Below are positions 1 through 16,648 of a stretch of 22,738 bases of DNA, one piece after another. The stretch comes from a virus, in IMG/VR virus record IMGVR_UViG_3300038660_000082, positions 1 to 22,738 of that record; one strand, given 5' to 3'. Each line of letters opens with the position of its first letter. The first letter of the stretch is position 1. The notes beneath the pieces are model-generated. The model was not told the origin of the DNA and ran no database searches. It was given only the letters and a program-made list of their open reading frames with translations. Both the position numbers and the translations under genes were made by a program.

Positions 1-239
1 CTTATATTCCTATTAAGATCTTTAATCTGTGAGATAGAAGTCGTCGCCCCTCTTTGCCTGTTAAGCACCTCCAAACGCTGTTGCAAGCTATTAATAGAGG
101 TTGTTGTCTCGTTAAATTTCCGTTTAGAGGCATTATTGGCTTGCTCAACTTTTCTCTGCATACTATTAAGCGAGCCCACAACCTTATTAAGCTTGGAGCT
201 TGCAAAATCCTTCATAAATATGTCGAAGCTGTATGCCAT
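1..239 (-). CDS. Tail tape-measure protein, N-terminal part (cut by window edge)
   Basis: An open frame of 79 codons starts at the ATG at 239 and runs off the left edge without a stop. The visible part begins MAYSFDIFMKDFASSKLNKV and is rich in Ser, Asn, Gln, Lys and Arg, with heptad-like spacing (SLNSMQRKVEQANN, then INSLQQRLEVLNRQ) that suggests a coiled coil. This is how tape-measure proteins usually begin. The gene directly follows the frameshifted chaperone: the TAA of the -1 frame (240-242) abuts this ATG. In tailed phages the tape measure almost always follows the G/GT chaperone pair, so position is the main argument. It would set tail length and line the tube lumen. Family assignment is by context and composition; its length cannot be judged here. 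Confidence 0.82.
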   Translation of the reverse strand, partial: MAYSFDIFMKDFASSKLNKVVGSLNSMQRKVEQANNASKRKFNETTTSINSLQQRLEVLNRQRGATTSISQIKDLNRNI

Positions 240-410
240 TTATTCTGAAGCTTTTTTCTCTTTTTGTCTTATGTCGTTTAGTATGGCGATTTTCTCGCCC
301 CATTCTTCATCGGTGAGATCCTGTGGATCTATCCCGAGGTAATACTGTAGTAGTGTGTCGTGGTAAGCAATATAGTTGGACTCAAAGTCGCCTTTAGAGT
401 CCTCTATAAC
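240..410 (-). CDS. Tail assembly chaperone, -1 frame extension (GT-like product, T part)
   Basis: After a -1 shift at 410-416 the frame continues GTT ATA GAG for 56 codons to the TAA at 240-242. It encodes VIEDSKGDFESNYIAYHDTL, then LQYYLGIDPQDLTDEEWGEK and a charged tail ending KEKKASE. There is no start codon near its beginning, so it is expected only as a fusion of the first 97 zero-frame residues plus these 56 (153 in all). In lambda the T part binds the tail tube protein while the G part coats the tape measure; the same division is inferred here. The stop abuts the tape-measure ATG. The acidic aromatic segment is typical of such extensions, though I cannot name a family. Confidence 0.85.
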   Translation of the reverse strand, partial: VIEDSKGDFESNYIAYHDTLLQYYLGIDPQDLTDEEWGEKIAILNDIRQKEKKASE

Positions 411-416
411 TTTTTT
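378..416 (-). promoter_or_regulatory. Programmed -1 ribosomal frameshift signal
   Basis: On the minus strand the heptamer A AAA AAG (416 to 410) is correctly phased with the zero frame (ATA AAA AAG TTA TAG). Seven nucleotides later a stem begins: GGACUC (402-397) pairs with GAGUCC (383-378), and after one bulged U (396) AAAG (395-392) pairs with CUUU (387-384), capped by a GCGA tetraloop (391-388). The zero-frame UAG (406-404) lies in the spacer. Heptamer, spacer and stem all match the canonical -1 signal. Confidence 0.9.
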
Positions 417-700
417 ATTTCCGCGCTTTTCACCTCCATCACTTTCTCGAGCTGTGCAGATGCGCCCAAGAAGTAGTCATCGTCTGTCTTCACATCGGCG
501 TCACCGCCTAGAAAGCAGTTATTGAGTATAACTTCAGCAAAGCCCAGAGGATTAGTCTGTGCTTTAGTCATCGCCAGAGACAACACTTTACGGTCTGGTT
601 TCTTCAGGAAGACTTCTTTACCATCTTCAAAATCTATCTTAAAGATGTCGCCGTGTTTTTTCTTCCAGGCATCGATTTGTTTTTGATTTACTTTAGCCAT
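404..700 (-). CDS. Tail assembly chaperone, zero-frame product (gpG-like)
   Basis: A 98-residue protein starting MAKVNQKQIDAWKKKHGDIF and ending in KSAEIKKL. It is the short zero-frame member of the tail assembly chaperone pair that keeps the tape measure soluble and recruits tail tube subunits (lambda G; Mu gp41). The call comes from size, charge and position between tail tube and tape measure, and from a -1 slippery heptamer a few codons before its stop, which joins it to the next frame. Its leader carries an exact 11-bp tandem duplication (700-721) just before the ATG. A hairpin (743-766) separates it from the tail tube gene. Confidence 0.85.
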   Translation of the reverse strand: MAKVNQKQIDAWKKKHGDIFKIDFEDGKEVFLKKPDRKVLSLAMTKAQTNPLGFAEVILNNCFLGGDADVKTDDDYFLGASAQLEKVMEVKSAEIKKL

Positions 701-721
701 TGTATTTGGGTTGTATTTGGG
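700..721. repeat. 11-bp tandem duplication in the chaperone leader
   Basis: Two exact head-to-tail copies of TTGTATTTGGG (plus strand). Read on the minus strand they are CCCAAATACAA twice, ending at the ATG of the chaperone gene, so the A/C-rich leader that serves as the initiation region has been duplicated. Confidence 0.8.
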
Positions 722-742
722 TTATAGGTTATAATAAGTTCC

Positions 743-766
743 CTGGAGAGCTTGGAAGCCCTCCAG
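743..766 (-). other. Intergenic RNA hairpin between tail tube and chaperone genes
   Basis: A 10-bp stem (743-752 with 757-766, one G-U pair on the minus-strand RNA) closes a 4-base loop. No U-tract follows on either strand, so it is not a standard terminator. It may protect the tube mRNA 3' end or lower expression of the downstream chaperone and tape-measure genes relative to the abundant tube protein; that role is inference. Confidence 0.55.
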
Positions 767-774
767 AGAAATAC

Positions 775-1194
775 TTAGTCTTGTCTCTTAACGTCCAGGA
801 ACATAATAGGAAGTTCTACCTCCATATTGGTTGCTCCCTGAGCCATTGTCTTGGTGACTTCGGTGAACTCTACATTCTTAAGAATGTCCGTCACAATCTG
901 CCCGTCGTTGTCTCTTGGCGTGTAAGCCACAACAATGTCGAAGGATAGATTGGTGATGTCCTTGTCTTTAGCATCTTTGGTCATGGCCTCGAGTTCAGAC
1001 TGCCACACCTTAATCTTGCCCTCGTAATTCTTATTGCCGTGGACGATAGCGTGAGGTTTTGCCCCTCTGCCGTACAAGTATTCCTTTTCTTTGGTTTCCT
1101 TGTATTCCACCTCCATAACGCCCTCCAGTATTCTACCACCGTAAGAGATCGTCATGTCGGCCCAGCCGTATTGTTTGCTTGAAAATGTTGCCAT
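775..1194 (-). CDS. Tail tube protein
   Basis: A 139-residue protein, MATFSSKQYGWADMTISYGG onwards, with alternating beta-type segments and the phrase EYLYGRGAKPHAIVHGNKNY followed by EGKIKVWQSELEAM. A glycine-rich turn leading to a strand reading "x-G-x-I-x-V" in the middle is typical of tail tube proteins of contractile phages. It would polymerise into the inner tube around the tape measure. It lies two bases downstream of the sheath gene, the usual sheath-tube order, and upstream of the chaperones. Its length matches common tube proteins. The assignment is by order and overall character; sequence resemblance to the Mu or P2 tube proteins is not obvious by eye. Confidence 0.82.
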   Translation of the reverse strand: MATFSSKQYGWADMTISYGGRILEGVMEVEYKETKEKEYLYGRGAKPHAIVHGNKNYEGKIKVWQSELEAMTKDAKDKDITNLSFDIVVAYTPRDNDGQIVTDILKNVEFTEVTKTMAQGATNMEVELPIMFLDVKRQD

Positions 1195-1196
1195 GA

Positions 1197-2363
1197 TTAG
1201 TTGATGTTTGTTGTGAATCCAATGTTAACCTGTATCATTTTCGCATAGCCAACAGGTTGTAGGCTAAGTTGCACGATGATCTGGTCGCTCTGCAACACGT
1301 TTTGATTAACGTCGATAAATGCTCTTACAGCACTTAGTTTACCCTCTGCAACCATTCTCTGGTTAATGTCGTTCTCGATCTTACCCTGCATGGATTTGAT
1401 GATCGCAGGATGGATCTGTCCAGCTTCATTCACTGGCACTTCATCGCTCAGCTCTTCGGTCAATGTGTTGTTGGCCAATATCACCGCCTCGTCCATCACC
1501 ATGCCTCTGGCAAGTGATGAGAAATCGTTGGTAGGAATTACCAAGGTTGGATCATCTGTAAAGAAATAACCCGCACGACCAGGGAAGGATCTTAAAAAGA
1601 TATAGCCTTTGTCGTGGATAGCATCCCAGGCATCTGTATAAGATTCGATGGTCTTACCATCTGTGAGGTAAGCCTCTAGCACTTCTATAGGTCCGTCTTT
1701 TACTCTGGCGATACTTCGCTGAGTAGGAATAGCTGCTATTCTACCCAAAGCCAAACCTATGCTTGCTTCTGGAGCTCCGTCGTTGTTTGCCAGGAACATG
1801 GACACTCTATCGAATGATCCTTCGGTGTAGTCGTTAAGATCTGCAACCGTTCCATTAAAGGAATTACCCGAAATGATCGTTCTAAAGGGCATGTATTTAC
1901 TGGCAAAATTCTCAGCCAGCTCTTGAAGTTTAACCACGCCAAGGTTGACGTCTTCATCAATACCATCAACAATTGTTGGTGCTGCCGGCTCTTCTTTTAA
2001 GAGTCCAAGAATTCGTATTCTACCTCCTGCGTCTTCCACCAATTTCTTGGCATAAGGCATGGTATAATCTGCCATGTCCTGGTAGGTTGTGGCATCCGAT
2101 ACCAGCATAAACCAAAGCTCTGCACCTTCCTCAGCTTCTCGGTAGAAGTCAGAAATATGCTTATAAGCCAGTGGATTGTCTGCCTGGGTGATCCCTAAAG
2201 CTTCTGCTGCTGTAAGGGAAAATACTTGTTTGGATTCGCCTAGTTGAATATTATCAACCACACTAGATCCTGTAATGACAAGACCAGGTACTTTTTGAAC
2301 ACCAGCTCCAGCAAGAGCAAGACCATTCTCGGCAACGTTAAAGGTGATTTTTGGAAGTCCCAT
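1197..2363 (-). CDS. Contractile tail sheath protein (possibly DUF2586-like)
   Basis: A 388-residue protein beginning MGLPKITFNVAENGLALAGA. Its N-terminal part carries strand-rich sequence and GLVITGSSVVDNIQLGES. A central alpha/beta region contains ELWFMLVSDATTYQDMADY and GGRIRILGLLKEE, and the C-terminal part ends GYAKMIQVNIGFTTNIN. A C-terminal half with ARGMVMDEAVILANNTLTEE, then a helical and strand tail, fits the conserved sheath core that wraps the tube and contracts at infection. I believe it resembles the Bacteroidota phage family DUF2586, a sheath-type family, but this is from memory. It is much shorter than T4 gp18 and somewhat shorter than Mu L. The gene lies directly upstream of the tube gene, and its ATG lies immediately before the lipoprotein stop. 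Confidence 0.82.
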   Translation of the reverse strand: MGLPKITFNVAENGLALAGAGVQKVPGLVITGSSVVDNIQLGESKQVFSLTAAEALGITQADNPLAYKHISDFYREAEEGAELWFMLVSDATTYQDMADYTMPYAKKLVEDAGGRIRILGLLKEEPAAPTIVDGIDEDVNLGVVKLQELAENFASKYMPFRTIISGNSFNGTVADLNDYTEGSFDRVSMFLANNDGAPEASIGLALGRIAAIPTQRSIARVKDGPIEVLEAYLTDGKTIESYTDAWDAIHDKGYIFLRSFPGRAGYFFTDDPTLVIPTNDFSSLARGMVMDEAVILANNTLTEELSDEVPVNEAGQIHPAIIKSMQGKIENDINQRMVAEGKLSAVRAFIDVNQNVLQSDQIIVQLSLQPVGYAKMIQVNIGFTTNIN

Positions 2364-2882
2364 CTATATGATTTTAAATTTTGTTAGTATAATACCAGCG
2401 ATTAAGCCAATCGCCAACGCTCCTGCGCTGGTGTATATCAGTCTAAAAGTGCTTACGCCTCTTTTAATGTTTTGTGAGTTTGAGGTATCGGTCTCGTCCG
2501 TTTCCTTAATGAGTGTCTCTTTTATTTTGGCAGCAATGGCCAAAGAGTCGCATCCCGCATTTATACGCAAGAAATCACCCAAAATATTAGCCTTTACAAA
2601 GGCATCTCCATTGTTTGCACTATAGTCTGGTGTAGGAGTTTTTGAAGTTGTTTTGGGCTTGGATTTCTTAGCGCCTTCATAATCTGCACACAATTGCCGT
2701 ACATTAATACTGAGCTCTGTTTGCTGTCTTGGTACCTTAAGTATGGTATCTCGAAAAGTTTCTACAACAGATCGAGTAACAGTCCTATTTGATGAACTCT
2801 CCACAGTCTTTTGGCGTGAACCACAACTAAGGAGAGCAATCAAAATACAACCAGTCCAAAAAAGTTTAACTAAGCTATGCAT
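2364..2882 (-). CDS. Lipoprotein with C-terminal membrane anchor, candidate unimolecular spanin
   Basis: A 172-residue protein. The N-terminus has a lipoprotein signal: Lys6, hydrophobic FWTGCILIAL, then lipobox LLSC with Cys20. The middle is polar and charged with a Pro/Thr/Lys-rich stretch near residues 74-90. The C-terminus (about 149-168, SAGALAIGLIAGIILTKFK) is one membrane-spanning helix. A lipid anchor at one end and a transmembrane helix at the other is the layout of unimolecular spanins such as T1 gp11, which bridge outer and inner membranes and fuse them in the last step of lysis. It overlaps the DUF5675 gene by 8 bases and precedes the sheath gene. An alternative is a membrane-bound structural or exclusion lipoprotein. 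Function is inferred from topology only. Confidence 0.7.
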   Translation of the reverse strand: MHSLVKLFWTGCILIALLSCGSRQKTVESSSNRTVTRSVVETFRDTILKVPRQQTELSINVRQLCADYEGAKKSKPKTTSKTPTPDYSANNGDAFVKANILGDFLRINAGCDSLAIAAKIKETLIKETDETDTSNSQNIKRGVSTFRLIYTSAGALAIGLIAGIILTKFKII

Positions 2883-3303
2883 GTGTGCTTTTTATGATGT
2901 TGAGATCAAAAGCTTTTGGCATAATATCCAAGAGCTTTTGCATTGTATTTACAGAATCGGTTACATCTAGTAGTCCGTCTCTATTGATATCTGTGAGATC
3001 GGCTCCAACCAGTATGCAACCTTCTATATCTGTATAATAATTTCCTTTATGGATGAGGATCCAAGTCCTGCCTTCTACGTCTGTAATGTGAAAGTGGTGC
3101 TTGAACCTTTTGCTGTAACGCTTCACGACGGTGTACTTTCCTTCTGGAATACAAGAGATAGAATTGGAATTGTTAAGCCATGGCAACTCCAAGGTATGAC
3201 AGTCAAAAACTGAAGACTTATTGCTACTAAGAGCAAAGAGTCTCCCTATGGTCTGTTTATCGCCATAAGTCTGTCTTTCTATTAAGAGTTCCTCTGCCTT
3301 CAT
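2875..3303 (-). CDS. DUF5675-family phage protein with EF-hand-like loop, possibly lysis-related
   Basis: A 142-residue protein, MKAEELLIERQTYGDKQTIG onwards. It contains CHTLELPWLNN, CIPEGKYTVVKRYSKRFKHH, HKGNYYTDIEGCILVG and a calcium-loop-like segment DINRDGLLDVTD (residues 105-116: Asp105, Asn107, Asp109, Gly110, Asp116 at positions 1, 3, 5, 6 and 12). The order "E-GKY ... H-GN ... GCILVG ... DxNxDG" is what I recall of DUF5675, a family frequent in Bacteroidota phages whose activity I do not know. The conserved His and Cys could be catalytic. Immediate overlap with the spanin-like lipoprotein suggests a lysis role, as inference. No signal peptide is visible. Confidence 0.72.
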   Translation of the reverse strand: MKAEELLIERQTYGDKQTIGRLFALSSNKSSVFDCHTLELPWLNNSNSISCIPEGKYTVVKRYSKRFKHHFHITDVEGRTWILIHKGNYYTDIEGCILVGADLTDINRDGLLDVTDSVNTMQKLLDIMPKAFDLNIIKSTHA

Positions 3304-3648
3304 CTACTTAGTTTCCTCTTCTTTTGTAAGTTCTTCGACTCTCTCGTCGTAAGCTTTTTTGACGGTCTTGCGATCGTCTTCAGCAAAGACCTCGATGTCG
3401 GCCACCTCAGTTGCTTCTTTGATAAGTGCAATAGAGTCGGCAGCGTTGAGCTCACTGAGCTCTTCTGCTTTCGTCTTCTCTGCGCTGGTCGCAAACTTGG
3501 TTATCTTCTTATCCTCAAGACCTTTGGCGTGCACTTTTGCAAATGCATCACTCACGAATAGGAAGCCGTCGCTGGTAGCGAACACCTCTTTTGCTTCATT
3601 GCGCTCAAGGTAGTCTTGAGCGCGTTCTTTGATTGTTTTCTTTGCCAT
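3304..3648 (-). CDS. Small phage protein next to the capsid gene, function unknown
   Basis: A 114-residue, strongly charged protein beginning MAKKTIKERAQDYLERNEAK and ending ERVEELTKEEETK. It has a central segment EVFATSDGFLFVSDAFAKVH and a Lys/Glu/Ala-rich helical remainder. It follows the capsid gene by two bases and is followed directly by the DUF5675 gene. Proteins of this type and position occur in other Bacteroidota Mu-like prophages as far as I recall. A head decoration or head-completion role is possible from position but nothing in the sequence proves it. No signal peptide, membrane segment or metal motif is seen. Confidence 0.75.
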   Translation of the reverse strand: MAKKTIKERAQDYLERNEAKEVFATSDGFLFVSDAFAKVHAKGLEDKKITKFATSAEKTKAEELSELNAADSIALIKEATEVADIEVFAEDDRKTVKKAYDERVEELTKEEETK

Positions 3649-3650
3649 GA

Positions 3651-4664
3651 TTATCTGATTGCTCCTAAGAATTTAGGACTGTTAGCTCTAATGACGCCTA
3701 ATAAGGCTCTTTGTGCATACGATAAGATATCGGCTTGTAGACCCGCATCTCTTAAGGTTGCATATAGCTCTACATCTCCAAAACATCTGAAGACTTCATC
3801 TGAGTTCCAAAAGAAAGAAGATCTAGTGTCTCCAGCTTCCTGGACTGCTCCAAAAGGCTTTTTAACACCTGCACTAGTAAACAATGGAGCTTGTGAATAC
3901 TCAAAGACATTAAATCCGTACATGTTACGATCGTTCATAATATCCTTAAACAACTGCTTATCTTCTTTACGGATTCTAGCCATGTGATCTGGAGTTAAAC
4001 AGATATTCATGTTTTCAGTCTTATCTTTTTCTCCGTAAAACTTTCTCATGTCGATGATGGCATCTAGAATACTATCTGTTCCGAGTTCTAAAACATTGTT
4101 GTCTGTTCCAGAAGTTCCAGGTGTCCAGGCGTGAGCTGCTCTTTTACCTAAGTTCTTTGTTAGTGAGTTTCTGTGCCTGTTGATAACCGACTGTCTACGA
4201 TTGTAAGCCAGCTCGATCTCTTGCAGATCTCTGTGTCTGGTCTGGTCTGTAGAATAAGTCCTAAGCACGACCTCATTTGGAATGTCTGGAGTTGTAGCGA
4301 TTGGTAGTGGATCTTCATTGCCAGCGAAGTAATCCTCATTTACGCCTGGATCTACGCCCGCCTCTGCAAGATGCAATTTGTTGTTTTCCACATATTCACT
4401 CATATCGGTGGATGCAGCAACAAAGGAGGTATTGGGCACGGGATTCTCTTTAATGCCTGCGACCCAGACTTCTTTTTGTAGGCCAGCCATAAGCTTGCCC
4501 GAAAAGATGCCAGGGGAAAAATATTCGATTGATGCAGATACGGCCGTGATGGCTACTGCGGTCATCACAGGATTGATCTCTATGAAGGTAGAGAAGGCAA
4601 AACTGATCATTAAAGCCAAAATAAAGTTGATGGCTAAACTTGCGATTGAAAGATGTCGTTTCAT
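3651..4664 (-). CDS. Major capsid protein with hydrophobic N-terminal leader
   Basis: A 337-residue protein. Residues about 5-28 (LSIASLAINFILALMISFAF) are a membrane-like helix, and 33-47 (VMTAVAITAVSASIE) a second, weaker one. After Met59 the sequence becomes soluble: MAGLQKEVWVAGIKENPVPN, TDMSEYVENNKLHLAEAGVD, then FDM-free helical and strand sequence with DDEVF-like SDEVFRCFGDVELYATLRDA and a C-terminal VIRANSPKFLGAIR. Size, order (after protease/scaffold) and content fit an HK97-fold capsid protein of Bacteroidota phages. The leader could be a delta-type scaffold removed by the upstream protease, or could place the procapsid at the membrane. Met59 could also be an internal start. The gene lies 25 bases after the protease gene, with an A/C-rich leader. 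Confidence 0.8.
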   Translation of the reverse strand: MKRHLSIASLAINFILALMISFAFSTFIEINPVMTAVAITAVSASIEYFSPGIFSGKLMAGLQKEVWVAGIKENPVPNTSFVAASTDMSEYVENNKLHLAEAGVDPGVNEDYFAGNEDPLPIATTPDIPNEVVLRTYSTDQTRHRDLQEIELAYNRRQSVINRHRNSLTKNLGKRAAHAWTPGTSGTDNNVLELGTDSILDAIIDMRKFYGEKDKTENMNICLTPDHMARIRKEDKQLFKDIMNDRNMYGFNVFEYSQAPLFTSAGVKKPFGAVQEAGDTRSSFFWNSDEVFRCFGDVELYATLRDAGLQADILSYAQRALLGVIRANSPKFLGAIR

Positions 4665-4689
4665 TGTTCTTGTTTTCTGGGGTTTGGGT

Positions 4690-5196
4690 TTAGTTTTTGG
4701 CTGGTGTCCAGCGTTTGCCTTTAGCGTACTCTTGGGCGAGTCTCACGTATTCAGCATTGTTATTGTCCTTTAGCTCACGAAGCTTTTCAGGATCGTTTTG
4801 CTGGAGGTAGTCAAACGATAGTTCGACGCCACCTTCAGCACCTTGGCCACCGCCTACGATCTTACCGATAGCAGTTTGGGTGTGGTCTTTTTTGACTGTC
4901 TTTTCAGCTTCAGTGATCAATCCTGAAAGCAATACTTTCTGGTTGTCAAAATCAGCTTCCAAAGCTTTTAATTGAGATTCTTTAAGACCTTCAGGGATCA
5001 ACTTCAACTCAACAGCTTTAGTCACCAATTGATTTGCCTCTGCATCTCTTATGGCTTTTAGTTGTGACCGTAAAGCCTCTTTTTCGGTGTCAGCATTCTC
5101 AGCAGATAGCTTGATCTCTGATACTTTCTGAAGCACCACTTCAGGTTTTGTTTCTGCATCTAAGCCTAAGGCTAATGCGATTTGCTTAATATTCAT
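4690..5196 (-). CDS. Possible separate scaffold from an internal start in the protease gene
   Basis: Codon 157 of the protease gene is an ATG at 5196 with the A/C-rich leader AAAACCCAGAAACA directly before it, similar to leaders of other genes in this phage. A protein from here has 168 residues beginning MNIKQIALALGLDAETKPEV, exactly the scaffold domain boundary. Mu makes its scaffold gpZ from gene I in the same way. The DNA shows the start codon and boundary; use of the start is inference. Confidence 0.4.
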   Translation of the reverse strand: MNIKQIALALGLDAETKPEVVLQKVSEIKLSAENADTEKEALRSQLKAIRDAEANQLVTKAVELKLIPEGLKESQLKALEADFDNQKVLLSGLITEAEKTVKKDHTQTAIGKIVGGGQGAEGGVELSFDYLQQNDPEKLRELKDNNNAEYVRLAQEYAKGKRWTPAKN

Positions 5197-5664
5197 TGTT
5201 TCTGGGTTTTCGGTGTTAAGTGGCTGTAGATTTAGCTTTAAGGGACTCGCTGCACTTAGCTTAAGTGCATTATCATTCCCGCCAAGATCCACAATGGAGA
5301 TCTCCCTAAGCTTACACTTGGTGACCGTCTCAAATAGTTGTCCTGGGAGGATGTCCTCCTCTGCATTGGAAGTGGCTTCTGGAGTGGCGAATATGGAAGC
5401 CATACGGATAAAGCCTCTTTCGACTTTTCCAGCTAGATCTGCTGCGTCTTCGTCTTCCATATCAAACTCGATGTCTGCCATGAGTTTGCCGTTTTCCTTA
5501 TAAAGCTTCATTGCTTTGCCAACAACGTCTTTGGCTTTGCCTCTGGTGTGTAGAAATAATACCAGCGGATTGCGCTCATATTGAGTGATATTGATTCCAT
5601 CAGTCATGACACGGTAGCCGTATTCGTTGATGATGGATTCGTCTGAAACTACAAAAGTGTGCAT
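4690..5664 (-). CDS. Prohead protease fused to scaffold (Mu I/Z-like arrangement)
   Basis: A 324-residue protein. Residues 1-150 look like a prohead serine protease: DGINITQYERNPLVLFLHTR with His39 before RGK, ERGFIRMASIFATP with Ser90, and KCKLREISIVDLGGNDNAL, corresponding to the "L-x-E-I-S-x-V" signature downstream of the active site. Residues about 157-324 are a scaffold: IKQIALALGLDAETKPEVVL, a long charged coiled-coil region, a Gly-rich linker (GGGQGAEGG) and a C-terminus ending AKGKRWTPAKN. The enzyme would cut itself, the scaffold and perhaps the capsid leader during head maturation. In Mu the scaffold Z is made from an internal start within I; an internal ATG at the same place exists here. 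The gene heads the minus structural operon. Confidence 0.85.
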   Translation of the reverse strand: MHTFVVSDESIINEYGYRVMTDGINITQYERNPLVLFLHTRGKAKDVVGKAMKLYKENGKLMADIEFDMEDEDAADLAGKVERGFIRMASIFATPEATSNAEEDILPGQLFETVTKCKLREISIVDLGGNDNALKLSAASPLKLNLQPLNTENPETMNIKQIALALGLDAETKPEVVLQKVSEIKLSAENADTEKEALRSQLKAIRDAEANQLVTKAVELKLIPEGLKESQLKALEADFDNQKVLLSGLITEAEKTVKKDHTQTAIGKIVGGGQGAEGGVELSFDYLQQNDPEKLRELKDNNNAEYVRLAQEYAKGKRWTPAKN

Positions 5665-5836: not shown

Positions 5837-6130
5837 ATGAAAGACATCTTGCTAGACGAAAACAACGACTTGTTGATAACTAATGGCGACTTGACCATAG
5901 GCGACTCAGACAAGCAAAACCAGAAGCTTATCCTGAACACCTACAAAGGGGAATGGAAAGCCAATCCAGAACTTGGTGCAGCAGTCCAGGACATGCTGAG
6001 CGATGACAATTTCTCCAGGTACATCATTGAAGCCAAAAAGCAACTCGAGTACGACGGGATGAAAGTAGATGATATTCGCCTGGAACGGGACCAACTAATT
6101 ATTGACGGTAAATACAAACAAAATGGCTAA
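5837..6130 (+). CDS. gp25-like baseplate wedge protein
   Basis: A 97-residue protein, MKDILLDENNDLLITNGDLT onwards, containing GDSDKQNQKLILNTYKGEWK and ANPELGAAVQDMLSDDNFSR, and ending DQLIIDGKYKQNG. The pattern "D-x-x-L-D-x-N-x-D-L, nucleation of a D/GD loop, Q-N-x-x-L-I-L-x-T-x-x-G-E-x, PxxG" is typical of the short gp25/W/Mu gp46-type proteins that start sheath polymerisation in the baseplate. It is the first gene of the plus operon and overlaps the terminase small subunit gene by 8 bases. A baseplate gene leading a packaging operon, away from the other tail genes, is unlike Mu. The family call is by motif and length. Confidence 0.75.
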   Translation: MKDILLDENNDLLITNGDLTIGDSDKQNQKLILNTYKGEWKANPELGAAVQDMLSDDNFSRYIIEAKKQLEYDGMKVDDIRLERDQLIIDGKYKQNG

Positions 6131-6596
6131 AGGTAGAATGACATCGACCGAGCGGGATTATCTCATCTCGCAAGGCACAGACTTATACAGCAAAGGCTTC
6201 TCCATCCAGAACATTTCTGAATTGATTGGCGTAGGACTTAAGACCCTTTACAAGTGGAAAGAAGACTACAAGTGGGAAGAGGCAAAGGAGCTGAACATGA
6301 TCCGCCCTTCTGAAATCAAGAAGATGATCCTCCAATATGTGGTAGCCATTAAGAATGGTGAAGTGCCACTCTACAAAGCCGATGACCTAGCAAAGATCTC
6401 CGCAGCCTTTGATCGGTTAAATGACAGCCGTAAAAAAGCCGTCCACACAATGGAGAGCTTCGATGCTTTCTCCAGCTTCATGATGACCAAGGCAGGCCAA
6501 AGCAAAGGCAAGAAGAGAGACGAACTTTTGAAACTGACTAAAGACATCCGGGTCCATTTTGATGGCTACGTTACAGAACTATTGAGCAATGAATAA
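6123..6596 (+). CDS. Terminase small subunit (DUF1804/Mu gp27-like)
   Basis: From the ATG at 6123 the product has 157 residues: MAKGRMTSTERDYLISQGTD, a helix-turn-helix GFSIQNISELIGVGLKTLYK with the following WKEDYKWEEAKEL, then a helical middle and a C-terminus ending FDGYVTELLSNE. An N-terminal HTH ending in "T-L-Y-K-W" followed by "Y-K-W-E-x-A" is the usual start of this family, which recognises phage DNA and regulates the large subunit. An in-frame TTG at 6102 extends the frame, but the ATG has an AAATACAAACAAA leader and matches the family start. It overlaps the next gene by 8 bases and the previous gene by 8. Confidence 0.85.
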   Translation: MAKGRMTSTERDYLISQGTDLYSKGFSIQNISELIGVGLKTLYKWKEDYKWEEAKELNMIRPSEIKKMILQYVVAIKNGEVPLYKADDLAKISAAFDRLNDSRKKAVHTMESFDAFSSFMMTKAGQSKGKKRDELLKLTKDIRVHFDGYVTELLSNE

Positions 6597-8139
6597 AACA
6601 GAACTCAAAGAAGCCAGGGAGCGCTATTTTGCGTTATCCAAGATGATCAAGTCCGCCTCTGCCGACAAGTTGATCAAGGAGACCACGACCCAACAAGAGG
6701 AGCGAATCAAACGCCTGCTACAACCTAAGAACTACTTAGATTTCTTTGAGTTTTATTTTGGGGTGAAGTCTGGTTTACCACTGGCAGATGCGCCCTCGGC
6801 TCAGTTTCATCTGGACTCTTATCTAAGCCTATACGGTGACGTGTATTGCAAGCAGTTTCGGCGGTGGTTTCGTGGTGCTGCGAAATCCATCCATACCAAT
6901 GTTGGCAATTTGCTTGCCCTCAAGCAGTGCGACGAGGTCAACTTTGCGCTCATCATCGGCCGAAATCAAAACGCTGGTAAGATCTTAATTCAAGATATAC
7001 AGGCTCACCTGGAGAGTAACGAGATCTTTAGAAAAGACTTTGGATCACAAATGAGTTATGGCTCATGGGCAGACGGTGAGTTTGAAACCAACGACGGAAA
7101 ACACTTTAAGGCTTTAGGGCTTAATCAACCTTTCAGGGGTTTACGTTTTGGAGCTGCACGTCCAGACTTTGCCAGTGTGGATGATGTGGAAGACAGAGAC
7201 GCAGCCAAGAACAAAGACCAGGTGCGCAAATACGGTGACAAGATCGTAGGTGACCTGGGGAAAGCTTTCCACCTGAGAAGAGCCAGAATGGTATTTGCCA
7301 ATAATTACATTGTGAAAAACGGGATTAACGACTACGTCCTGAAGAAATACAAAGACAACAAACACCTCGATGTAAGCACCATCAATTTGACTGATGAGAA
7401 GGGCAACCCTATGTGGCCAGAACGCTACAGCAAAGCAGATACAGACGCCATCATCGAGAATGACGACTATTACACCAGCCAAAGAGAAGATTTCAACAAC
7501 CCCATAGAAGAGGGAAAACTCTTTAAGGCGGAGAAGATCATCAAGCGATCGGTACACGGCAATGAGATCTTTGACGGCTTTCTGTCGCATTGGGATTTAT
7601 CCTATACCAGCGCAGGCGATTACAAAGCAGGCGTATTGCTAGGCATAAAGGATCTGGAACTTACAGTTCTGGAAGTGTTCTGCCAGCGTTGCGACATCAA
7701 CTCCGCTATGGAGGTTCACTTCCAATGGCAGGAGAAGTACAGAAATAAGAGTGCATTGCCTTTGTCCTTCTACGATGCAACGGCAGCACAACAAGCCGTT
7801 TATGCTCCAATTATTCAACAGTGTGCAGAAGATAGCAGGTCGCCTTATGTGCCTATGCCTATTCACCAGGGCGGAGACAAACACAACAAAATAGAAGCTA
7901 CCATCCTGAGTGTGTTACACCGTGGTATTTTGTTTTGGGATGATGCTCTGGAGGGCAAAGACTTCGACGAGTTTATGAACCAGATCCTGTCTTTTGAAAA
8001 GGGTACCTCTGGCAATGACGATGCCCCAGATACACTCACGCATGCCATTATCTATGCTCAACTGTATTATGGCTACAGCAAGGAGAAAGACAGTAGAAAG
8101 CCAACCATAGGCAAACGCAAGAAAAACCGTAGAGTATGA
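6589..8139 (+). CDS. Terminase large subunit (packaging ATPase and nuclease)
   Basis: A 516-residue protein, the usual length of the family. The ATPase half has a degenerate P-loop, RRWFRGAAKS (residues 91-100), an adenine/coupling region FALIIGRNQNAGK (119-131) and a Walker B-like FASVDDVED (194-202). The nuclease half has SHWDLSYTSAGDYKAGVLLG (Asp336 as first metal ligand), SFYDATAAQQAV (Asp396) and GNDDAPDTLTHAI (Asp477/478/481), matching the RNase H-fold signature of large terminases. It drives headful packaging of the replicated Mu-like DNA into the procapsid through the portal. Its ATG lies 8 bases inside the small-subunit gene, and its TGA overlaps the next ATG. The basic tail KRKKNRRV may bind DNA. 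Confidence 0.93.
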   Translation: MNKTELKEARERYFALSKMIKSASADKLIKETTTQQEERIKRLLQPKNYLDFFEFYFGVKSGLPLADAPSAQFHLDSYLSLYGDVYCKQFRRWFRGAAKSIHTNVGNLLALKQCDEVNFALIIGRNQNAGKILIQDIQAHLESNEIFRKDFGSQMSYGSWADGEFETNDGKHFKALGLNQPFRGLRFGAARPDFASVDDVEDRDAAKNKDQVRKYGDKIVGDLGKAFHLRRARMVFANNYIVKNGINDYVLKKYKDNKHLDVSTINLTDEKGNPMWPERYSKADTDAIIENDDYYTSQREDFNNPIEEGKLFKAEKIIKRSVHGNEIFDGFLSHWDLSYTSAGDYKAGVLLGIKDLELTVLEVFCQRCDINSAMEVHFQWQEKYRNKSALPLSFYDATAAQQAVYAPIIQQCAEDSRSPYVPMPIHQGGDKHNKIEATILSVLHRGILFWDDALEGKDFDEFMNQILSFEKGTSGNDDAPDTLTHAIIYAQLYYGYSKEKDSRKPTIGKRKKNRRV

Positions 8140-8618
8140 CCAGTAGAAAACGTTTATTTCTGGACGTCCAGAACCAACTGAAGACCGTCACAGAGCTAGA
8201 AGTGATCGACTACCATCGCAACCAGTTTGCTGAGGGTGTTAACCAATATCCGAACCAGTACACCGCTGCATTGATCAAAATAGATGTGACCGATTATGCC
8301 TCGATGACTGAAGGGATCAAAGAAGGATCTAATGCTATCGTGGAAATTCACCTGTACATCAAAGACGGCTGGATGGATCAACACCAGAACACTTCAGATC
8401 CTGAAGGGGGTTTGATAGAAATTGACTTGATCGATAAGATCGAGGAAGCCCTGGAGAACCTAACAGGAAATGACTACAGACCGCTAAAGGTCATTCAGGA
8501 AGACGAGATCCCCAACGAGGGTGAGCCTATTATGGGCTTTATCATCAAGTTTGGTACTAAGATATTTAAGCGTATTAATTACGGCTACACGAAGACAGCC
8601 ATACAAATAACAACCTAA
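8136..8618 (+). CDS. Possible tail terminator/head-tail protein
   Basis: A 160-residue protein beginning MTSRKRLFLDVQNQLKTVTE. It has alternating strands in the middle (AALIKIDVTDYASMTEGIKE, AIVEIHLYIKDGWMDQHQN), an acidic helix IDLIDKIEEALENLTG, and ends YTKTAIQITT. An N-terminal helix, a paired-strand "P-A-x-L-I-x-I" region and a helix before a final sheet fit the tail terminator fold seen in other phages, which caps the tail at the neck. It overlaps both neighbours by a stop/start (ATGA at 8136 and TAATG at 8616) and sits between terminase and gp36-like genes. I recognise no exact family, so this is a fold-level guess. Confidence 0.55.
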   Translation: MTSRKRLFLDVQNQLKTVTELEVIDYHRNQFAEGVNQYPNQYTAALIKIDVTDYASMTEGIKEGSNAIVEIHLYIKDGWMDQHQNTSDPEGGLIEIDLIDKIEEALENLTGNDYRPLKVIQEDEIPNEGEPIMGFIIKFGTKIFKRINYGYTKTAIQITT

Positions 8619-9049
8619 TGTTTCTAACTCAAGCAGAACTTAAGACCGTTTCCACTGTGGAAAACATCAATCTAATCGTTAATAACGATGAAGAGATTGT
8701 TAATACCATCATCCAGGAGTGCATAGATGTTATGCATACCTACCTTTTTAAGTATTATGATGCAGATGCCATCTTTGCAAAAGAAGGTGAACAACGCTCT
8801 AGAATTATAATAAAGTACCTTAAGGATCTATCCATCTACGAGATCTATATGAGGCGAAGTAAGCAAGCCAATGCGGTGGTAGAGAAAAGACAAGAAGAGG
8901 CTATGATCTGGCTAGAGAAAGTGGCCAAAGGCGAGATTGTTCCAGATTTACCAAAAAAGATGATCGATACAGATGGGGATGGCGAAGTAGATGCCGCCAC
9001 ACCCTTTATGAAGTTTGGCTCACGGAAGAGCTATAAAAATCACTTTTAA
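8618..9049 (+). CDS. DUF1320, Mu gp36-like head-tail connector protein
   Basis: A 143-residue protein beginning MFLTQAELKTVSTVENINLI, followed by the mostly helical EEIVNTIIQECIDVMHTYLF and SRIIIKYLKDLSIYEIYMRR. The order "F-L-T-x-x-E-L ... I-x-x-C-I-D-x-x-x-x-Y-L ... I-x-x-Y-L-K-D-L-x-I-Y-x-I-x-x-R" is the DUF1320 pattern, that is, Mu gp36. These helical proteins are thought to join the portal to the tail (gp6/gp15-type connectors). The C-terminal IDTDGDGEVDAATPF contains an Asp-rich loop that resembles a calcium site. Start and stop overlap neighbours by TAATG and the following ATG. Confidence 0.85.
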   Translation: MFLTQAELKTVSTVENINLIVNNDEEIVNTIIQECIDVMHTYLFKYYDADAIFAKEGEQRSRIIIKYLKDLSIYEIYMRRSKQANAVVEKRQEEAMIWLEKVAKGEIVPDLPKKMIDTDGDGEVDAATPFMKFGSRKSYKNHF

Positions 9050-9537
9050 TGGCCAAGCTCGGTGACTTAGAACGAAAACTGAGGATGGCAGTTAGAAAGC
9101 TTCCAGAGCAAACCTTAAGAATTATAGAGGTGGAAGGTCTTGCCTCTATCAACAAAAACTTTAGGGATGAAGGTTTTAACGATGGAGGACTGCAGAAGTG
9201 GAAACCAAGAAAAACCACCGATAAGCGAGGCCGAGACATTACACGCTATAAGACCAATCGAGTTGGCAGAGCTGGAAATCTGACTCGCTACGGACGCAAG
9301 AACCAGGGGAGAGCCATTCTTACAGGTCATGCGACGGGAGGAAACAAACTAAGGAACTCATTTACCAGTAGCAGAAGCAAAGTAAAGGTGAGATTTAGAA
9401 CACATAAAGACTATGCCCAGGTGCATAATGAAGGTGAGGGCAATATGCCACAACGCCAGTTTATAGGAAGATCGCGAACACTAGAGAACAACATCAAAAA
9501 GAAATTAACCAAAGAGCTGGATAAGCTCTTGAAATAG
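9049..9537 (+). CDS. Virion morphogenesis protein (Mu G / P2 S-like)
   Basis: A 162-residue, very basic protein. It opens MAKLGDLERKLRMAVRKLPE, continues GLASINKNFRDEGFNDGGLQ, KWKPRKTTDKRGRD, GRAILTGHATGGNKLRNSFT, and ends MPQRQFIGRSRTLENNIKKK followed by a Leu/Lys helix. The sequence "F-x-D-x-G-F-x-x-G-G ... W-x-P-R ... I-L-x-x-T-G-x-L-x-x-S ... Y-A-x-x-H-x-E-G ... M-P-x-R-x-F-I-G" is the signature of phage virion morphogenesis/tail completion proteins (Mu gpG, P2 gpS). It would cap or complete the tail at the head-tail joint. It abuts the gp36-like gene with TAATG and is followed six bases later by the portal. Confidence 0.9.
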   Translation: MAKLGDLERKLRMAVRKLPEQTLRIIEVEGLASINKNFRDEGFNDGGLQKWKPRKTTDKRGRDITRYKTNRVGRAGNLTRYGRKNQGRAILTGHATGGNKLRNSFTSSRSKVKVRFRTHKDYAQVHNEGEGNMPQRQFIGRSRTLENNIKKKLTKELDKLLK

Positions 9538-9543
9538 TATACA

Positions 9544-10776
9544 ATGGCAGATAAAAAAACACCTGGTAAAATCATAGAAAGCGAAGTTAAGCTAAGCGGT
9601 AATGCTATGAAAAACGTCCAACTCAGTGGATCGAACACCAAAGACATCAAGAAGATCACCAACCTTATGGTGGATGTCATTAGACGCCAGCGACGACTCT
9701 GGAAAAAAGAAATAAGCGACTGGCAACACGCCAGATTTGCCCTCTACAGATCGGACCAGCCAAGAACTTATCCCATGCAGGAGTTGTATGAGGATGTAAT
9801 GATGGACGGCCACCTTACGGGTATTACAGGCAATAGAACCTTAAGAACAACAAACAAAGACTTTTGTATTGCCGTGGACGGAGTCAAGGATGAAGAGCTC
9901 ACCAAGTACATTGACGGCAAGCAATGGTTTGAACACGTCATTGAGGAGGCTCACAAATCCACTTATTATGGGTATTCTCTGGTGTGGATCAAAGACTACC
10001 AGGAAGGTGAAATCAAAGAAGTGGAGTTAATCCCTCGAGGTCTGGTGATTCCTACTGAAAAGATTCTGCTCTATCAACTGGACGGGATCAAAGGTCTGGA
10101 CTATTCAGAAATTAAAGACATATTGCTGTATGCTCAGTTTTACGATCATGTAGGACTGTTGGAAAAGGCTGCGGTGTATACGATCTTAAAACGACACTCC
10201 TGGGGCTCATGGGATGAGTTTGAGGAACTCTTTGGCGTACCGATGCGTATTGCCAAGGTGGCCAGCCAAAGCGAAACCGTAAAGAATGAAGTCGCAGGCT
10301 GGCTTGAGGAGATGGGCTCCGCTGCTTATGGGGTGTTTCCTATTGGTACCGAAGTCGAGATCAAAGAGAACTCCAAGACCGACGCCTTCAATGTCTTCCA
10401 CCAGAAAATACAGGCACTAGATCGTGAGCTGTCCAAATTGGTACTGCACCAAACCATGACCACCGACAACGGCTCCAGCAAAGCCCAAGGAAGTGTCCAC
10501 GAGCACACCTTGCAGGAGTTGATCTATGCCGACGAAAAGAAGATGATGGCGTTTCTCAACGACACGCTCTTGCCAGCCATGAAGAGCCTGGGGTATAACT
10601 TGCCAGACGATGCTCGATTTATGGTAGAGAAGACGGTAGACGTTCAAGACCAGATCAAGATCGATGGTGTTTTTATGCAAAATGGGTACACCTTGAAGCA
10701 AGACTACCTGGAGCGCACCTATGGTGTGGAGATTGAGTCCATGCCCGCCAAAGGCTTTGAAGCGGGAAAGCCTTAA
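9544..10776 (+). CDS. Portal protein (DUF935, Mu gp29-like)
   Basis: A 410-residue protein. Key stretches are DVMMDGHLTGITGNRTLRTT near residue 90, EEAHKSTYYGYSLVWIKDYQ, LIPRGLVIPTEKILLYQLDG, and LKRHSWGSWDEFEELFGVPM near residue 220, followed by a helix-rich C-terminus with VLHQTMTTDNGSSKAQGSVH. "W-x-x-F-x-E-x-F-G-x-P" and "Q-T-x-T-T-x-x-G-x-S" are the hallmarks of the Mu gp29/DUF935 portals. It forms the dodecameric ring through which DNA is pumped by the terminase. It is slightly shorter than Mu gp29. The start MADKKTPGKIIES is 6 bases after the G-like gene. The F-like gene follows after 11 bases. Confidence 0.93.
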   Translation: MADKKTPGKIIESEVKLSGNAMKNVQLSGSNTKDIKKITNLMVDVIRRQRRLWKKEISDWQHARFALYRSDQPRTYPMQELYEDVMMDGHLTGITGNRTLRTTNKDFCIAVDGVKDEELTKYIDGKQWFEHVIEEAHKSTYYGYSLVWIKDYQEGEIKEVELIPRGLVIPTEKILLYQLDGIKGLDYSEIKDILLYAQFYDHVGLLEKAAVYTILKRHSWGSWDEFEELFGVPMRIAKVASQSETVKNEVAGWLEEMGSAAYGVFPIGTEVEIKENSKTDAFNVFHQKIQALDRELSKLVLHQTMTTDNGSSKAQGSVHEHTLQELIYADEKKMMAFLNDTLLPAMKSLGYNLPDDARFMVEKTVDVQDQIKIDGVFMQNGYTLKQDYLERTYGVEIESMPAKGFEAGKP

Positions 10777-10787
10777 GCCTGCTTAAG

Positions 10788-11579
10788 TTGCATTACCGCA
10801 CACAGTGTTGCGGTACAGATCCCATCAAGCTGGATCTGGAAGACTACAACTTAAGCGGGCTGATCTCGCAATACATACGTGAGCTGTTTGAAGACCGAGT
10901 CATCGACGAGGCCAAACGCTTACAACTGATTGAGAAGTACTCGCAGATCCTTACTGAAGCGATCACAAAAGGCTACCCGATCACCAGTGAGTTTTATGAT
11001 GCAGATCTGGCCAAACAACTGAAGGAAAATATCACACGCTTTTCTGCCTTTAAAGAGACGAGCTTTAAGAACAGCATTGAAGGGATGCTGACGGAAAACG
11101 GGAAGCTCTTAAGCTTTAAGGAATTTAAAAAACAAGCCCTGGAGGTTTCTGAAGACTACAATAAACGCTGGCTTAGGACTGAATATGACCAGACGGTGAG
11201 CTCGGCCAACATGGCCAATAAATGGAAGTCTTTTGAAGCCAATACAGATCTTTATCCAAACATCCGCTACCAGACGGTAGGCGATGGGAGAGTGCGAGAA
11301 AAGCACCAGCAATGGGACGGCACGGTATTACCGTTTGATCATTCGTTTTGGAACACACATTTACCACCTAACGACTGGGGGTGTAGATGCACCATAATGC
11401 AAACCGATGCACCTGTAAGCAAAGGGGTAGCCTCTGGACGTGTGAAAAAAGGATTCAATACCAACTCAGGGAAAAAAGGAGAGATCTTCAAGGAGTCGCC
11501 CTATGAGGAAACCTTGAGCAATGCCGAGCGACGCAAAGCTGAAGCTATGGCCGATAAACTAAAAAAGCAGACTAAGTAA
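10788..11579 (+). CDS. Head morphogenesis protein (Mu F / SPP1 gp7-like)
   Basis: A 263-residue protein. The C-terminal motif is clear: RVREKHQQWDGTVLPFDHSF followed by WNTHLPPNDWGCRCTIMQTD, matching the "R-x-x-H-x-x-x-D-G ... P-P-x-x-x-G-C-R-C" signature of the Mu F/SPP1 gp7 minor head protein family; these proteins enter the head with the portal. The Cys pair and His suggest metal binding. The frame has no ATG before the conserved region: the best start is TTG at 10788 (product starts M-H-Y-R-T-Q-C-C-G), with CTG at 10779 a less likely option. The stop TAA lies within the terminator stem. It closes the plus structural operon. Confidence 0.9.
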   Translation: MHYRTQCCGTDPIKLDLEDYNLSGLISQYIRELFEDRVIDEAKRLQLIEKYSQILTEAITKGYPITSEFYDADLAKQLKENITRFSAFKETSFKNSIEGMLTENGKLLSFKEFKKQALEVSEDYNKRWLRTEYDQTVSSANMANKWKSFEANTDLYPNIRYQTVGDGRVREKHQQWDGTVLPFDHSFWNTHLPPNDWGCRCTIMQTDAPVSKGVASGRVKKGFNTNSGKKGEIFKESPYEETLSNAERRKAEAMADKLKKQTK

Positions 11580-13067: not shown

Positions 13068-13201
13068 TTCTTTCTCTTTTTTAGTAAGCGTTCTAGTTTA
13101 CGGCGTTGCGCTCTGGTGAGTTTGGGGGTTATTTTTAGCTCTTCGGGCTTGTTGATTTCAAGGCCTCTTTCGTTATCTTCAAATGGGTTTCTTGTTTTCA
13201 T
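13064..13201 (-). CDS. Small basic protein (45 residues)
   Basis: An ORF of 45 codons from the ATG at 13201 to the TGA at 13064: MKTRNPFEDNERGLEINKPE, then a strongly basic end LTRAQRRKLERLLKKRKK. It overlaps the YopX stop by 4 bases at its start and the next ATG by 4 bases at its end (ATGA), a chain of coupled genes that makes translation likely. The Lys/Arg-rich tail suggests nucleic-acid binding, perhaps to RNA or DNA; no known family. Confidence 0.68.
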   Translation of the reverse strand: MKTRNPFEDNERGLEINKPEELKITPKLTRAQRRKLERLLKKRKK

Positions 13202-13626
13202 AGGTTTTGGTTGAGAGTTTTCGGTTGTCGGTTTTTAGTCGTGTTCTTAAGTCTGTAGTCAAAATCATTAAGCTCAAGCCATAGTTCTGAACTGAATGTC
13301 TGGTCTTGGTCATGGCTTTGATCAAGATGCCAGGAGCCTGTGGGTTGGTTCCAGAAGACGGTGAGCTCAGATCTAGTCCATAGGCCATCGACCAAAACTT
13401 CATCGCCTATCACATCACCGTCGTATATTTCTTTGTCGTCAGCATCTGTAAAGCCTGTAAATTCAGCTAAAGAATCTGGCTCAATTTCAAAGTAGGTGTT
13501 TTGAGTTGCATCCTCGAAAGGCTTATAATATATGCGAAAATCGCCTTTAGGTGTTTTTACAAAATAGCCATATATCAGCTCATTTGAAGTTTTTCGTTTC
13601 CCTCTAAATTTTATTGTTTTATCCAT
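13198..13626 (-). CDS. YopX-family phage protein
   Basis: A 142-residue protein beginning MDKTIKFRGKRKTSNELIYG and containing FVKTPKGDFRIYYKP, EIEPDSLAEFTGFTDADDKE, and IYDGDVIGDEVLVDG. The "I-K-F-R-G-K ... Y-G-x ... V-x-P-x-S-L-x-x-F-T-G-x-x-D-x-x-x-x-x-I-Y-x-G-D-V" sequence is the standard YopX pattern (Pfam YopX), very common in Bacteroidota and Firmicutes phages but without known activity. It opens the run of tiny overlapping genes downstream. The final stretch NTTKNRQPKTLNQNL is poorly ordered and may be a recent extension. Confidence 0.9.
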   Translation of the reverse strand: MDKTIKFRGKRKTSNELIYGYFVKTPKGDFRIYYKPFEDATQNTYFEIEPDSLAEFTGFTDADDKEIYDGDVIGDEVLVDGLWTRSELTVFWNQPTGSWHLDQSHDQDQTFSSELWLELNDFDYRLKNTTKNRQPKTLNQNL

Positions 13627-14743: not shown

Positions 14744-15076
14744 CTAGTGGTTTTCATTGGCATAGGCTTTCACCTGGTCCATAGAGTTAAAAACTCTTAT
14801 ACCCAGGTCTTTTGCTAGCTGGTATTCTATCATTGCCCCTTTACTCTTCCTGGCGTCTGGAAGCAGTAGAATAGCTTCGCAATGCAAAAGAGCTATAAGG
14901 CACTTACGCATAGCGTCTGTCCAGCTGGTGGCTGGGTTTTCTATAAGTTGCATTGGATTTACTGTTTCATAACCTAGATTCTGTATCTCTTGCGAAGCTT
15001 TGCCAAATTTGGCTTTAGCTTCTTTTATATCTAGTCCTGTAACCTTGCCTGCGACGTATATAAGTTTATTTCTCAT
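14744..15076 (-). CDS. DUF4406 (nucleoside deoxyribosyltransferase-like) protein
   Basis: A 110-residue protein beginning MRNKLIYVAGKVTGLDIKEA, with GYETVNPMQLIENPATSWTD, AMRKCLIALLHCEAILLLPD and RKSKGAMIEYQLAKDLGIRV. The pattern "Y-V-A-G-x-x-x-G-L ... V-N-P ... W-x-x-x-M-R-x-x-L-x-x-L-x-x-C-x-A-I-x-x-L-P-x-x-x-x-S-x-G-A-x-x-E-x-x-x-A" is the DUF4406 family, a shortened relative of nucleoside 2-deoxyribosyltransferases. Asp and Glu residues of the "LP-D ... GA-x-x-E" part correspond to the base/sugar site. A role in nucleotide salvage or modified-nucleotide sensing is inferred from the fold. It overlaps the GemA-like gene as ATGA (15073-15076). Confidence 0.9.
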   Translation of the reverse strand: MRNKLIYVAGKVTGLDIKEAKAKFGKASQEIQNLGYETVNPMQLIENPATSWTDAMRKCLIALLHCEAILLLPDARKSKGAMIEYQLAKDLGIRVFNSMDQVKAYANENH

Positions 15077-15786: not shown

Positions 15787-15986
15787 TGTTCTGTTTTTGT
15801 GGTTTGTAATTCCTTGAGGTAAGCTGAGACGCTTCCAAAGAAGTTGATCAGTTTCTGGTGCTGTCTTTTGCTTTTGGAGGTCTTCTTGTACTTCAAGCTT
15901 TCCTGGCAGTCTTCAAAATTGACCTCGCAATCTGCGATGAGATCCTCGAGGTCTAGTTTTTTGAAGTTGGCTTTATCCTTTCCCAT
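15783..15986 (-). CDS. Small charged hypothetical protein (67 residues)
   Basis: Start chosen at the ATG at 15986, which overlaps the DUF3164 stop as TAATG. Product: MGKDKANFKKLDLEDLIADC, then EVNFEDCQESLKYKKTSKSK and RQHQKLINFFGSVSAYLKEL. A longer frame to 16022 lies inside the DUF3164 gene and is unlikely. It is Lys- and Glu-rich with two Cys near the middle and an amphipathic end. Unknown function; coupled to both neighbours. Confidence 0.68.
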   Translation of the reverse strand: MGKDKANFKKLDLEDLIADCEVNFEDCQESLKYKKTSKSKRQHQKLINFFGSVSAYLKELQTTKTEQ

Positions 15987-16648
15987 TATAAGCTTGAAAA
16001 TTGAAGTGAGACATCTTTCCATTTGCCTTTGGCATCACGTACGTGCAAACGGCAATAGAGTGAAGAGCCTGAAACTTGCTGGCATTCGTCCAGCTTGTCA
16101 AACTCGTTGATCAAGTTATCGTCGCCCAGCTCTCGGACTTGTCGGCGAGCCTTAGCCAGTAACTTAGGATCGTACTCCATCTTGGTGTTTTTGATCAGCA
16201 AACCGTCAAGGATGTTGTACAGGCCTTTGTTGCGGGCTTCAAACTTCTCCTTGAAGATTTCACGTATAGCGGTGATATGAACCATTGCCTCGTCGGTGAA
16301 TTCAAACTTCTCCTGGCGATCTACTGTCACCTTGATCGTGTCGGCTCTATTCTTAAGTGAAAAGCTGTTGACCTCTTTTGGCGTTTTGCCTTCTATCGAG
16401 TACATACGCTCATACAGCTTATTGGCTTCTGCGATGCTGTATTCCTTCAGCTCCTTCATTTCGTTGTGGATCTGGGTGAACTTGGAAGCGGTGTGATCCA
16501 GGAACGACTCCTTGTCGTTGAAATACAGCTTTTCGGCTTTCTCCTGGGCTTCTTTTTTGGCTTGCTTGCGTCTTGCGATTTCCGCTTCAAGCTCCTTCTC
16601 GCTTAATGTAGCGAGGTCTAGTGTTGGGGTTTCAGTTTGTGTGCTCAT
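15986..16648 (-). CDS. DUF3164-like early phage protein
   Basis: A 220-residue protein. After an acidic, coiled N-terminus (EKELEAEIARRKQAKKEAQE) it has KEYSIAEANKLYERMYSIEG, IKVTVDRQEKFEFTDEAMVH, EKFEARNKGLYNILDGLLI, and a C-terminus SSLYCRLHVRDAKGKWKDVS. The "F-D-E-x-A ... G-x-Y-x-x-L-D-G-L-L ... K-x-x-x-A-x-x-Q-V-x-x-L ... Y-x-R-x-x-x-R-D-A-x-G-K-W" pattern matches DUF3164, found in the early regions of Mu-like phages but with no known activity. It is flanked by stop/start overlaps (TAATG at 15986 and ATGA at 16645). Some databases label relatives as sulfate transporters, which this sequence does not support. Confidence 0.8.
   Translation of the reverse strand: MSTQTETPTLDLATLSEKELEAEIARRKQAKKEAQEKAEKLYFNDKESFLDHTASKFTQIHNEMKELKEYSIAEANKLYERMYSIEGKTPKEVNSFSLKNRADTIKVTVDRQEKFEFTDEAMVHITAIREIFKEKFEARNKGLYNILDGLLIKNTKMEYDPKLLAKARRQVRELGDDNLINEFDKLDECQQVSGSSLYCRLHVRDAKGKWKDVSLQFSSL

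Follow-up and report, generated by a model that had tools for sequence, protein, structure and literature searches.

A probable programmed −1 frameshift in a putative tail assembly chaperone gene of a Mu-like Bacteroidota phage, and the varied slip sites of its relatives

A putative tail assembly chaperone gene on the minus strand of the window (the whole 22,738-nucleotide stretch of viral DNA analysed here) very probably directs a programmed −1 ribosomal frameshift yielding G and G-T forms of the chaperone in a Mu-like Bacteroidota phage; we put the probability of this reading at roughly 0.93. The features that agree with it are the position of the gene, the phased slippery heptamer, the 7-nt spacer, a hairpin in which one pair has changed at synonymous sites, purifying selection on an extension that has no start codon, and a predicted fold resembling that of chaperones. 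Most ribosomes would translate the 98-aa G protein up to its TAG codon. At A_AAA_AAG a minority would move back by one base as tRNA-Lys re-pairs with AAA AAA; the hairpin 7 nt downstream would aid this slip, and the product would be a G-T fusion of 153 aa. If lambda is a guide, G may coat the tape measure and G-T may recruit the tube protein, the two forms being made in a fixed ratio. That the shift occurs, with what efficiency, and that the hairpin helps it are points that we infer from the DNA.

The zero-frame gene (ORF at 404..700, minus strand), which has a match to phrog_19076 and a predicted fold described below, encodes the G part and ends in GAA ATA AAA AAG TTA TAG. The earlier note had proposed a correctly phased A AAA AAG heptamer, a 7-nt spacer containing the zero-frame stop, and a stem of 10 pairs with one bulge and a GCGA tetraloop, and every coordinate holds. 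The heptamer lies in frame at 410..416 (−), an assignment drawn from the sequence, the A-ending P-site codon in relatives and the tree; the spacer TTATAGA at 403..409 (−) includes the TAG at 406..404; and the 3′ hairpin at 378..402 (−), seen in folding and in covariation within the window's clade, bulges one T (402..378: GGACTC-T-AAAG, the GCGA loop and CTTTGAGTCC, with 3′ arm CTTT-GAGTCC). The proposed joining of the 98-residue protein to a startless 56-codon extension also stands: this T part occupies 243..410 (−), and its 56 codons, counted after the slip pair, give a fusion of 97+56 = 153 aa. The −1 ORF of the window contains no ATG, GTG or TTG (positions −73 to +60 relative to the stop were scanned, and the remainder was read off the sequence), and no ORF of at least 20 aa with its own ATG, GTG or TTG was found in the extension. 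As had been claimed, the extension ends exactly at the tape-measure start, its TAA (242..240) adjoining the ATG at 239 of a gene cut by the window edge (3..239, minus strand). The counterpart of that gene in L007, a 99%-identical relative, starts directly after the extension stop and encodes a 636-aa tape measure (phrog_9959 tape measure, 5.6e-41).

Upstream of the chaperone gene, the same strand carries tube-like, tail sheath, capsid and protease genes. The sheath gene (1197..2363, minus strand) matches phrog_907 (2.6e-34) and Pfam DUF2586 (4.1e-40), and the likely tail tube gene (775..1194, minus strand) was assigned from phrog_4579 tail protein (3.1e-14) and from its position between sheath and chaperone. 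The best match of this tube-like gene, ahead of phrog_4579, was phrog_9206 'major head protein', a label that may have its origin in a fusion or in misannotation. The resulting order, sheath – tube – G – T – tape measure, puts the chaperone gene after the major tail protein gene and ahead of the tape measure. Among the 106 distinct regions described below, a long ORF starts no more than 20 bases from the end of the extension in 57, elsewhere within 150 bases in 12 and farther away in 35, while 2 regions showed none; these distances are rough because the first ATG of the frame was taken as the start.

Pfam returned no family for either the G part or the extension of the window, and the PHROG matched by the G part is annotated 'unknown function' (phrog_19076, 2.5e-31). 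The predicted structure of the G part (pLDDT 92.5) lies nearest to RBSTP2171 (3fgx; Z 8.4, rmsd 4.2, 90 aligned residues). The second aligned chain, the HK97 tail assembly chaperone gp13 (2ob9), gave a moderate Z of 5.2 (rmsd 3.2, 76 aligned), and values below 8 may reflect a common arrangement. Both proteins resemble the G part in predicted fold but share only 9–14% identity with it, and no sequence-profile match was better than E 0.27. A chaperone function for the G part is suggested by the predicted fold.

Relatives were drawn from two viral-contig scans, one genome scan and three phage records. At least 136 loci were gathered, the second viral scan contributing the best 80 of 97; with the window these made 137 entries, from which removal of 31 duplicates left 106 distinct regions, reduced further to 88 non-redundant sequences. 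Tree counts use 87 rows (L029 was omitted), alignments A5–A8 contain 75 and 72 rows chosen by hand from the 88, and isolates L137–L140 were inspected separately and stand outside all counts. Most of the relatives sit in Bacteroidota genomes, including Capnocytophaga, Tenacibaculum, Prevotella, Parabacteroides and Apibacter among others, with one of the 39 genome relatives (L040) labelled Oscillospiraceae; further relatives are isolates classed as Winoviridae.

An AAN codon stands one sense codon ahead of the stop in 86 of the 88 sequences. The base preceding AAN is A in 85 of 88 (44.6 expected from codon usage), and in 73 of the 87 sequences that could be tested (29.8 expected) the P-site codon is preceded by a base identical to its own first base. 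Because codon-usage probabilities treat related sequences as independent, two controls were applied, column bias and tree counts. Among 30 columns, the P-site codon had the strongest third-base bias (z 8.7), followed by the AAN codon (7.3); the other 28 reached at most 5.9 (codon −7), the next value being 4.5. On the tree of 87, the P-site codon (codon −3, ending at −10) changed at least 21 times and its amino acid 21 times, an excess of 0, whereas codon changes exceeded amino-acid changes by 4–43 in the other 39 gene columns; third-base changes numbered 3 at the P-site codon, 18 at the AAN codon and 14–47 over those 39 columns, all of these counts being approximate because the tree was built quickly and support is poor for 40 of its 84 inner branches. 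On this comparative evidence the slip site is under selection at the nucleotide level, with the A at −10 frozen.

The window hairpin folds at −13 kcal/mol, against a mean of −5.38 for shuffled sequences (z −3.61; none of 200 equally stable). Its conservation was followed in alignment A3, which comprises eight members of the window's clade and omits the Tenacibaculum group L019–L022 and L066, whose hairpins have other geometry. The outer six pairs are paired in 95.8% of cells. One of them, col18–col36, is C-G in four members and U-A in the other four, with both bases at third positions of the −1 frame; its covariation score was reached by 5 of 500 shuffles, and the pair changed twice on the tree (7 of the 8 sequences). 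The comparison of covarying stem bases suggested in the earlier note therefore yields one coordinated pair swap at two synonymous sites, which is modest support, since only one of the six pairs varies on both sides. Across the family, mean fold z for the 45 bases from the stop onward was −1.15 in the 32 A_AAA_AAR sequences, compared with −0.13 (12 G_GAA), −0.28 (13 GTA_AAR), −0.35 (10 GTA_AAC) and −0.15 (21 others), although single group means are noisy, as stretches elsewhere reach z −1.18 (GTA_AAC at −140).

The hairpin might be incidental, kept by the protein code, while the frameshift itself is real; this reading, which is compatible with the core explanation, is unlikely but deserves some weight. 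The hairpin is weak or missing in many heptamer carriers, L065, L088, L125 and L128 having no clear one, and the double change affects just one of the six outer pairs. Against this stand the stability of the window hairpin (z −3.6), the placement of the double change on two synonymous sites, and the concentration of folding in the heptamer group at this stretch, six other places giving group means of −0.38 to +0.18. The stem that had been described as stimulatory is present in the window's clade and in some other heptamer carriers, but it is not general, and no sign of a common one was seen at degenerate sites. In the degenerate-site group, RNAalifold on 40 sequences returned no consensus pair, and the best candidate helices (34 ungapped) were matched by 24–56 of 60 permuted-half controls, so a shared hairpin was rejected there. 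A search of Rfam found no match at E 1 within 200..760.

The −1 extension is kept in 105 of the 106 distinct sequences, the window included, and runs 155–251 bases past the zero-frame stop. In the exception, L029, a one-base break around 2780–2820 leaves the rest of the extension in the third frame, and none of the relatives examined has the G and T parts in one frame. The extension domain is homologous across 75 aligned relatives (consensus ...NAxLRYYLHIDPDxLTDEEWAxxxxELxxIRxxE), and dN/dS in close pairs was 0–0.59, below 1 for every computable pair, indicating purifying selection. AlphaFold predicts two long helices and one short one (pLDDT 88.6); against the PDB (three chains aligned) the best Z was only 2.2, and BFVD gave weak matches to unnamed phage proteins of 42–47 aa, one of them from lotta8-1. 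Pfam searches of the 75 relatives produced just scattered, weak, chance-like matches, and a PHROG match was obtained for one of the 75 members. Protein family libraries thus contain almost no trace of the domain, in all likelihood because gene callers leave the frames unjoined, so that a widespread group of phages has a conserved tail protein domain that escapes notice.

That the extension is instead a separate small gene with a start of its own, translated by re-initiation after the G stop, is very improbable. It is annotated in this way in lotta8-1 and fF4, with internal starts at +53 and +47, but these annotated starts omit the first third of the conserved extension. The window's −1 ORF offers no start codon of the three kinds sought, the possible starts of relatives are scattered and not conserved, and an independent start leaves the frozen A at −10 unexplained.

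The slip sites vary widely. Among the 88 sequences we counted A_AAA_AAG in 22, A_AAA_AAA in 10 and other AAA sites in 4, together with G_GAA_AAG in 12, G_GTA_AAC in 10, G_GTA_AAG in 9, other GTA sites in 9, ACA sites in 4 and 8 single cases. All six GTA_AAT or ATA_AAT sites precede TTT or TTA, which creates an A_AAT_TTN heptamer one codon on. Counting either place, canonical X_XXY_YYZ heptamers occur in 42 of the 88 and relaxed sites in the remaining 46, most of which keep just A_AAN with relaxed P-site codons (G_GTA, G_GAA); A_AAN is missing in three of the 46 (L045, L056 and L136). The earlier note had held that relatives lacking the heptamer would count against a frameshift. Such relatives do exist, but they refute nothing, since the −1 extension is kept (broken in L029) and A_AAN is present in all but three.

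Transcriptional rather than ribosomal slippage on the A run could in principle produce the fusion, and five relatives (L014, L055, L131, L132 and L133) do have nine- or ten-A runs at the slip site, where it could add to or replace ribosomal slippage. As the general explanation it is nevertheless highly unlikely: the window has six A, and G_GTA_AAC and similar sites have three or four, which is not known to suffice for transcriptional slippage. A sequencing error or the decay of a once-single gene, of which the one-base break in L029 might seem an instance, can be dismissed almost entirely, since isolates, genomes and metagenomes alike show the identical frame offset (105 of 106 sequences) and the extension is under purifying selection.

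The relaxed sites have precedents. According to one review, A_AAG is a minimal site, G_GU and G_GA are known intermediates of X_XX, A_AAA_AAG shifts far more readily in E. coli than either A_AAA_AAC or A_AAA_AAA, and E. coli tRNA-Asn is able only to double-slip (PMC5009743); judged by these motifs, G_GTA_AAC is the least expected of the sites found here. The PRFect report (PMC10885494) draws on annotated SEA-PHAGES genomes to list additional slip motifs other than the heptamer.

Downstream of the stop, synonymous bias was seen chiefly in sequences without an AAA P-site codon. In the 51 such sequences, the third positions of the first four −1 codons favour G (z 8.1), T (4.5), C (5.2) and G (4.8), after which the bias falls, with later single peaks at +20 (3.5), +29 (4.3) and +44 (4.1); in the 36 AAA sequences it appears only at the first position (4.0) and at +23 (3.4), all of these values being column statistics with no tree control for kinship. 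No simple stem there accounts for the motif of the non-AAA sequences, which may stand in for a hairpin at relaxed sites.

A Shine-Dalgarno-like stimulator was also considered. GAGG, GGAG and AGGA tetramers peak at −24 (35 of 87), but just 15 of 87 sequences carry the full AGGAGG, and the ribosomes of Bacteroidia reportedly do not recognise such pairing (PMC9976891); this candidate was rejected. Codon −7 (−24..−21 from the stop end) favours GAG over GAA (z 5.9), giving GAGG upstream of the slip site, and its Lys-Glu pairs end in GAG in 34 of 46 cases; across the long ORFs of these loci, 108 of 332 do so.

We tentatively suggest, at somewhat less than even odds, that across the family the shift rests on the near-invariant A_AAN, with a P-site codon that varies (AAA, GTA, GAA, ACA and others) while keeping first-base re-pairing and the final A. 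About half the group, including G_GTA_AAC sites read by tRNA-Asn, might then shift without a canonical heptamer or a common hairpin, in hosts whose ribosomes reportedly disregard Shine-Dalgarno pairing, aided by an undescribed element in the first ten post-stop bases. The relaxed sites and the biased post-stop motif merit follow-up, and these natural variants of one slip site, in the same gene and place, form a test set for codon-pair slipping in Bacteroidota.

The kind of signal is itself already known, and its family-wide relaxation is the more interesting part. Xu, Hendrix and Duda reportedly described in 2004 the chaperone frameshift of the lambda gpG/gpGT type and its counterparts in other dsDNA phages. 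The window resembles lambda in having the site ahead of the tape measure, a −1 shift near the end of G and a short T extension, but differs in its A_AAA_AAG, where lambda uses G_GGA_AAG, and in its obvious 3′ hairpin; Pfam and PHROGs scans gave no lambda G/T similarity for the window proteins. The frameshift in E. coli dnaX, where gene and purpose differ, uses a 3′ hairpin and an upstream Shine-Dalgarno-like stimulator. The review PMC5009743 gives the identical heptamer, A_AAA_AAG, for dnaX and describes lambda G-T frameshifting as widely conserved. In the literature searched, no title or abstract reported a tail-gene frameshift in Bacteroidota phages; the word 'frameshift' is absent from the main text of the Peternella paper (PMC8776804) and occurs once, concerning spanins, in that of a Porphyromonas phage paper (PMC10367356).

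The same gene, with A_AAA_AAG and a −1 extension, is present in the Winoviridae phages Peternella_1 (gp46), FPSV-S1 and lotta8-1 (gp038/gp039), where the counterparts are annotated as hypothetical proteins with no frameshift given. As the earlier note expected, annotation overlooks the extension in three of the five isolates inspected: for Peternella_1 and FPSV-S1 the records show the gene and the tape measure with the extension blank between them, and it is likewise blank in BS-TP1, which was found by a weak extension match alone (E 0.02). In lotta8-1 and fF4, by contrast, a separate small gene is called. By eye, the likely site is A_AAT_TTA in BS-TP1, and fF4 has G_GGA_AAG in phase. A slip signal thus recurs across a phage group in whose annotations the latter half of the protein is either absent or treated as a gene of its own.

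Assignment of the window to a Mu-like (transposable) phage follows from Portal_Mu (Pfam, 2.4e-66), a Mu-type transposition ATPase (phrog_296 DNA transposition protein, 3.4e-59) and a weakly matched transposase-like integrase core (rve, 0.0013, which falls short of the curated cut-off). The virion genes form two opposed blocks, with terminase, head-tail adaptor, portal and head morphogenesis genes at 6102–11579 (+) and capsid, protease, sheath and tail genes at 1–5664 (−), a layout that differs from that of phage Mu. A presumed early region on the minus strand encodes YopX-like (13198–13626), DUF4406 (14744–15076) and DUF3164 (15986–16648; match just under its cut-off) proteins.
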